DNA of 64,000 nucleotides from positions 62,001-126,000 of the forward strand of contig NZ_CP119802.1 of NCBI RefSeq assembly GCF_029338355.1. Direction: 5' to 3'. The position numbers and the translations under genes were made by a program. This DNA comes from Halosegnis marinus. GTDB taxonomy: Archaea; Halobacteriota; Halobacteria; Halobacteriales; Haloarculaceae. Below are positions 56,384 to 57,326 of the stretch, one piece after another; within the stretch, counting starts at the first letter, position 1; each line of letters begins with the position of its first letter. Under the pieces are notes generated by a model. It had not been told where the DNA came from. It worked only from the letters and a program-made list of their open reading frames with translations, and did no database searches.

Positions 56384-56743
56384 ATGAGCGACTATCTGGT
56401 GGCGATGGAGGCCGCGTGGTTGGTTCGCGACGTCGAGGAGGTGGACGACGCCATCGGCGTCGCCGTGAGCGAGGCGGGCAAGCGCCTCAACCAACAGGAC
56501 ATGGACTACGTCGAGGTGGGCGTCGGCGCGACCCCGTGTCCGGCCTGCGGCGAGCCGTTCGACTCCGTCTTCGTCGCCGCCGACACCGCCCTCGTCGGCC
56601 TGATGATGGAGATGAAGGTGTTCAACGTCGAGAGCGTCCAGCACGCCCAGCGCGTGGCGAAGAAGGAGATCGGCGGCGCCCTGCGCGACGTGCCGCTGAA
56701 GGTCATCGACACCGCGGAGATGGCCTCGGACGACGACGAGTAG
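56384..56743 (+). CDS. UPF0212/DUF555 protein
   Basis: 119 aa. Conserved start MSDYLVAMEAAWLVRDVEEVDDAIGVAVSEAGKRLN, central CPACGEPFDSVFVAADTALVG with a Cys-x-x-Cys zinc site, and C-terminal EIGGALRDVPLKVI. This archaeal family is widely conserved and of unknown function. It precedes the HTH-CBS regulator by 43 bp on the same strand. Confidence 0.88.
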   Translation: MSDYLVAMEAAWLVRDVEEVDDAIGVAVSEAGKRLNQQDMDYVEVGVGATPCPACGEPFDSVFVAADTALVGLMMEMKVFNVESVQHAQRVAKKEIGGALRDVPLKVIDTAEMASDDDE

Positions 56744-56756
56744 GGATTACCGACGG

Positions 56757-56781
56757 TTTTACGGATAACCAGTAGTTATCC
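56757..56781. promoter_or_regulatory. Promoter and perfect palindromic operator of the HTH-CBS gene
   Basis: A TATA-like TTTTAC at 56757-56762 lies about 28 nt before the ATG. Between it and the start codon, GGATAAC-N5-GTTATCC (56763-56781) is a perfect 7+7 inverted repeat. Its place between TATA and transcription start suits a repressor site, most likely autoregulation by the XRE-type regulator encoded directly downstream. Confidence 0.7.
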
Positions 56782-56786
56782 AACGT

Positions 56787-57326
56787 ATGGACCTGCCGAC
56801 GCCCGCCGACCTGCGCGAGAAGCGAAAGGCGCTGGAACTGACCCAGAGCGCGCTGGCCGACCGCGCCGACGTGTCCCAGCCGCTCATCGCGCGCATCGAG
56901 GGCGGCGACGTGGACCCGCGGCTCTCGACGCTGCGGCGCATCGTCACAGCGCTGGAGGAGGCGGAGGGGAACGTCCTGAAGGCGCGCGACCTGATGCACG
57001 AGGAGGTCGTCGCCGTCTCGCCGGACGACTCGGTGCGCGAGGCCGCCCGCGTGATGGACGAGGACGCCTACTCGCAGCTTCCCGTCCTCGAACACGACCG
57101 GCCCGTCGGGAGCATCTCGCAGACCGACCTCGTGGGGCTGGGCGAGGAGTCGCGCGAGAAGCCCGTCTCCGAGCACATGAGCGAGTCGTTCCCCACCGTC
57201 GCGGCCGACGCCAGCATCGACGAGGTGCGCCACCTCCTCGAGTACTACAAGGCCGTGATGGTCACCGAGAGCGGCGAGGCGGTCGGCATCATCACCGAGG
57301 CGGACGTTGCTTCGCGGCTGAGCTAG
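56787..57326 (+). CDS. XRE-family HTH regulator with paired CBS domains
   Basis: 179 aa. The N-terminal 65 residues are a Cro/C1-type HTH (LREKRKALELTQSALADRADVSQPLIARIEGGDVDPRLSTLRRIV). Two CBS motifs follow (ARDLMHEEVVAVSPDDSVREAARVMDED and VSEHMSESFPTVAADASIDEVRHLLEYY ... VGIITEADVASRL), which usually sense adenine nucleotides or SAM. A perfect palindrome overlaps its promoter, so autoregulation linked to ligand binding is likely. Its stop overlaps that of the convergent cytidylate kinase gene. Confidence 0.9.
   Translation: MDLPTPADLREKRKALELTQSALADRADVSQPLIARIEGGDVDPRLSTLRRIVTALEEAEGNVLKARDLMHEEVVAVSPDDSVREAARVMDEDAYSQLPVLEHDRPVGSISQTDLVGLGEESREKPVSEHMSESFPTVAADASIDEVRHLLEYYKAVMVTESGEAVGIITEADVASRLS

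Follow-up and report, generated by a model that had tools for sequence, protein, structure and literature searches.

The question raised by this locus of Halosegnis marinus is whether the palindrome lying between a TATA-like box and the start codon of an HTH-CBS gene is the operator of the encoded protein and, if so, which genes and which signal would be connected by such a switch. In the window, the whole 64,000-nucleotide stretch of DNA that was analysed, the locus contains the following features:

56384-56743, + strand: DUF555 (PF04475) gene, directly upstream of the HTH-CBS gene
56746-56760: O2, tandem operator-like site ATTACCGACGGTTTT, 1 mismatch to the core
56757-56762, + strand: TATA-like box TTTTAC; a T-rich box is found here in nearly all orthologues
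56763-56781: O1, putative operator, perfect palindrome GGATAAC-CAGTA-GTTATCC, 0 mismatches
56765-56779: conserved core of O1, ATAACCAGTAGTTAT, delimited by conservation across orthologue promoters
56787-57326, + strand: HTH-CBS ORF, 179 aa, HTH_3 plus two CBS domains (Pfam assignment), proposed methionine/SAM regulator

The palindrome and the promoter of the HTH-CBS gene

The perfect GGATAAC-N5-GTTATCC described in the first-pass annotation was found as claimed, immediately 3' of TTTTAC and followed 5 nt past its end by the ATG (56787). As the DUF555 gene ends at 56743, the entire HTH-CBS promoter is contained in a 43-bp gap. When up to three mismatches were allowed, 4 matches to the palindrome were observed in the window vs. 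0.45 expected, a number reached in none of 100 shuffles.

Full-length orthologues of the HTH-CBS protein are present as a single copy in 94 of the 96 genomes of the family, and single-copy orthologues were detected throughout the class (116/116 genomes) and, in a phylum-wide sample, in 203 of 246 genomes. The 50-nt regions upstream of the family genes revealed the core TWACN5GTWA in 81 of 90 cases, compared to 0.3% of shuffled regions, and these 90 regions have a common layout, with a T-rich TATA box followed by ATWACYNNNRGTWAT near the ATG; the site is symmetric and the 3 bp at its centre vary freely. The same TATA-then-operator layout was seen at named loci of other haloarchaeal families, and of the 199 promoters of haloarchaeal orthologues, a set in which some genomes were counted twice, 186 had the exact core (0 mismatches). 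On the methanogen side, where protein identity is 39-54%, sites such as ATTACTATCRGTAAT occupy the same promoter place, with 22 exact and 5 one-mismatch sites among 38 promoters (27/38 in total), vs. 0.05% and 1.1% of shuffles, respectively. The 15-bp core ATWACYNNNRGTWAT is the conserved unit, whereas the outer G...C of the 7+7 palindrome lies outside it.

The genes upstream of the methanogen-side orthologues differ and are diverse, and the operator is still there; haloarchaea with another upstream gene also keep it. At two loci (L232 and L253) the operator is located around 50 nt from the ATG, yet still behind a TATA-like stretch, so the operator tracks the promoter and not the start codon. 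In Ca. f17 genomes, the HTH-CBS protein is present without an operator at its promoter. The proximity of the palindrome to both the TATA box, which it abuts, and the start codon in most genomes could also be expected from a core-promoter or translation-start element. Nevertheless, we regard such a role as very improbable, given the symmetry of the site around a freely varying 3-bp centre, its absence from other promoters, its position behind the TATA and not next to the ATG at L232 and L253, and its co-occurrence with the regulator at other genes (see below). Class- and phylum-wide footprinting, the fixed place by the TATA and the independence from the upstream gene strongly support the proposal that the palindrome would be the operator of the downstream regulator; the site is real, very old and of the repressor type, and it precedes the gene of its likely binding protein.

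The second site, O2, lies 19 bp further upstream than O1, and its right half falls on the TATA-like box. A site of this type (ATTACCN3RGTTTT) was detected with the same spacing and placement in 8/8 Halosegnis/Halorarius sequences, and five of these eight have an O1 with a decayed right half; from both observations, tandem operators are likely in the HTH-CBS promoters of Halosegnis/Halorarius.

Regarding the gene neighbourhood, DUF555 is present in 95 of 100 haloarchaeal loci, nearly always upstream of the HTH-CBS gene and on the same strand, and many loci have a convergent purM downstream of the HTH-CBS gene and a proteasome-subunit gene upstream. The nearby purM led us to consider a purine regulator, a reading that was discarded as purM promoters are without the motif. 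The position directly upstream of the HTH-CBS gene is occupied by the archaeal RNase P RNA gene (RF00373) in genomes of the Methanomicrobiales type (L238, L240, L241, L264, L265 and L266).

Putative operator sites before methionine and SAM synthesis genes

The first-pass annotation had proposed that the motif could lead to the regulon. When genomes were scanned by pattern search, the strict operator core occurred once in the Halosegnis marinus genome, at its own promoter, and across the 116 genomes the TATA-embedded motif was matched almost only at the HTH-CBS gene, while the control count was zero throughout. This near confinement in haloarchaea would be compatible with a protein that binds its own promoter alone for homeostasis, its output being non-transcriptional CBS signalling or something else, and with the sites before metY, mat and HcyBio belonging to another regulator.

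The other target in the host has a one-mismatch site, GTAACTCTCGGTTAT, 29 nt upstream of the start codon of metY, which encodes an O-acetylhomoserine aminocarboxypropyltransferase (TIGR01326, above cut-off) acting in homocysteine synthesis. This site was detected, with a varying centre, in 15/15 close metY orthologues including that of the host, and one-mismatch sites before metY are known here from Halosegnis as well as from genomes belonging to six families of haloarchaea. Seven genomes from other families (f2, f4, f6, f7 and f8) carry the site within ~70 nt upstream of metY; two of them, G112 and G134, are also counted among the 15 orthologues. Several metY copies of Natrialbaceae and Halorubrum are without a clear operator site. 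Other one-mismatch sites of the host, in an ABC transporter region (L093), near an RrpB-like regulator (L094) and at L096-L098, had no link to the pathway and were set aside as due to chance or to something unknown.

Haloarchaeal SAM synthetase promoters carry a half-site on the TATA at -42 and, 31 bp upstream of it, a degenerate operator that is exact in L421. These promoters scored far above the controls from neighbouring genes, the promoters of DUF555, PSMB and PURM being low. The same SAM synthetase gene was found near both ends of the main contig of the host (G000:C1:37776 and G000:C1:2631094), which suggests an untrimmed overlap of a circular chromosome.

In methanogens, the operator copies outside the regulator's own promoter are located before the genes for SAM synthetase (PF01941) and HcyBio (HcyBio/L-ASST, PF01837 plus CBS). 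In targeted tests of 30 promoters each, the exact operator was detected in 23 SAM synthetase promoters (0.2% of shuffles) and in 18 HcyBio/L-ASST promoters (0% of shuffles). By comparison, it was found in none of 20 SAM synthetase and HcyBio promoters from ten genomes without a detected regulator, although the two sets of genomes compared are also of different ancestry. Autoregulation alone thus appears quite improbable to us, as the same half-sites and spacing, with a free centre, appear again at three genes of linked function in lineages far apart, and genomes lacking the regulator also lack exact copies. Through sequence analysis, sites, their conservation, target genes and co-occurrence with the regulator gene were obtained, and methionine/SAM targets were recovered with the motif as predicted, but not by its strict form in the host, where metY required one mismatch.

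In several Methanosarcina-group genomes, the HcyBio/L-ASST gene lies ~5-9 kb from the HTH-CBS gene (L363-L366, L368 and L372; L356, L357 and L359), which connects the two genes by neighbourhood as well. Separately, the methanogen genome G360 has four near-identical elements (L269-L272) carrying TTGTCCGACAATTACTN3AGTAAT ~50 bp ahead of TTTAAA/TATAAG-like stretches; no tRNA was found in them, and they may represent a mobile element making use of the operator.

The HTH-CBS protein and its putative signal

The 179-aa protein matches HTH_3 at residues 9-56 (PF01381, 39.1 bits vs. a curated cut-off of 23) and a CBS pair in two stretches (PF00571, 84.6 bits vs. a curated cut-off of 24), and its AlphaFold model has a pLDDT of 89. 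The HTH, including SQPLIARIE and DVDPRLSTL, is nearly invariant among haloarchaeal orthologues. Several Methanomicrobiales-type proteins with QSM for QPL have ATCAC in one half-site of the operator, which could be a weak hint of protein-operator co-variation. The Halosegnis/Halorarius proteins are closer to those of Natrialbaceae and Haloferacaceae (~70-73%) than to most of the assigned family (~55-64%), which suggests that the gene may have been transferred or replaced. The score against the DS11 CBS anti-phage protein (NF053863) was 44.6 bits vs. a cut-off of 260, coming from the CBS part alone, and this assignment was rejected; no relatives were found in viral contigs.

The second CBS motif (CBS2) has the G-h-h-[ST]-x-x-D adenosyl signature, as G167, T170 and D173 are kept throughout, with a single N at position 173 among 215 sequences. 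D114 of CBS1 is mostly kept in haloarchaea and was lost in methanogens. In human CBS, the Asp of this signature contacts the ribose of SAM (PMC4276868); the signature itself is generic and names no ligand. The first-pass annotation had offered a nucleotide or SAM as the signal, and, with methionine/SAM synthesis as the regulon recovered, the choice narrows to favour SAM, so its SAM option gains support. As the targets include L-ASST, which acts in homocysteine synthesis and whose CBS pair has been described as SAM-regulated (PMC12068725), the favoured ligand would be SAM or one of its derivatives. A signal such as AMP/ATP (energy charge), or methionine/homocysteine, acting on the same regulon seems to us a somewhat unlikely, if serious, alternative: GxxTxxD signatures bind many adenosyl ligands and the Foldseek neighbours of the model are generic CBS pairs, the closest being AMP/ADP/ATP-binding proteins such as AcuB and DarB, but every target found belongs to the synthesis of homocysteine, methionine or SAM.

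The position of the operator varies with the target. At the regulator's own gene, most sites are centred 15-17 nt before the ATG, immediately 3' of the TATA; at the HcyBio and metY genes, the operator adjoins or overlaps the TATA on its 5' side; and in the SAM synthetase promoters of methanogens, it lies some 27-37 bp upstream of the TATA. The positions at its own gene and at HcyBio/metY would suit repression, whereas that at SAM synthetase, ~30 bp upstream of the TATA, could mean activation as well as repression.

Overall, we consider it probable that the HTH-CBS protein has its operator in the palindrome, in an autoregulated control of methionine/SAM synthesis genes that responds to an adenosyl metabolite; regulator and site are linked by conservation and co-occurrence, and we infer DNA binding, repression and ligand. 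A dimer of the protein would bind ATWACYNNNRGTWAT between the TATA and the start codon, repressing its own gene. Through the same operator, it would control metY and probably SAM synthetase in haloarchaea, and SAM synthetase and HcyBio/L-ASST in Methanosarcina-type archaea. The CBS pair would probably read an adenosyl metabolite, with SAM (or SAH/MTA) as the most likely one, in such a way that the regulon would follow the methionine/SAM supply. There is about an even chance, in our opinion, that this single factor is the ancestral SAM-sensing methionine/SAM regulator of the phylum of haloarchaea and methanogens, with an operator older than their split and a swapped homocysteine enzyme (L-ASST in methanogens, metY in haloarchaea). 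If true, it would be unusual in that a 15-bp operator can be followed through both haloarchaea and methanogens under the same regulator while the target enzyme differs.

Comparison with known methionine regulators

MetJ, MetR, SahR and SamR are methionine regulators of bacteria (PMC4239095), and no prior description of an archaeal methionine/SAM transcriptional regulator, or of a counterpart of this one, was found in the literature searched, which included few subscription papers. MetJ, the SAM-responsive methionine repressor of gammaproteobacteria, binds tandem MET-boxes, AGACGTCT (PMC4239095). The HTH-CBS protein resembles it in its methionine/SAM synthesis regulon and in the SAM-type signal proposed here, but it is an HTH_3 plus CBS protein with a single 15-bp palindrome at archaeal promoters, and no MetJ model was among its Pfam/NCBIfam matches. 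With SahR and SamR, of the ArsR family (PMC4239095), it shares a palindromic operator, a regulon that includes its own gene, and SAM-cycle and methionine targets; in contrast to these bacterial proteins and their 20-bp palindrome, it has another motif and another DNA-binding family, as its Pfam/NCBIfam matches contained HTH_3 and no ArsR-type HTH.

Similarly to XRE/HTH_3 autorepressors, the protein has an N-terminal HTH_3 and a conserved palindromic operator at its own promoter, with probable tandem operators in Halosegnis, whereas its C-terminal CBS pair (the presumed sensor), archaeal BRE/TATA promoter and biosynthetic regulon set it apart from them. MJ0100/L-ASST also has a CBS pair within the same pathway, which is cited as binding SAM and MTA (in PMC12068725 and PMC4276868). 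There, the pair sits on an enzyme and not on a DNA-binding domain, and sequence similarity is weak, although MJ0100 CBS structures do appear among the sequence matches of the HTH-CBS protein.

The recurrence of the site at methionine/SAM synthesis genes points to the HTH-CBS protein as an undescribed archaeal methionine/SAM switch, functionally similar to MetJ and SahR but from an unrelated protein family. Transcriptional control of archaeal methionine/SAM synthesis thereby becomes directly testable, with a single gene, an exactly defined operator, three types of target gene and genetically tractable relatives in Haloferax and Methanosarcina.
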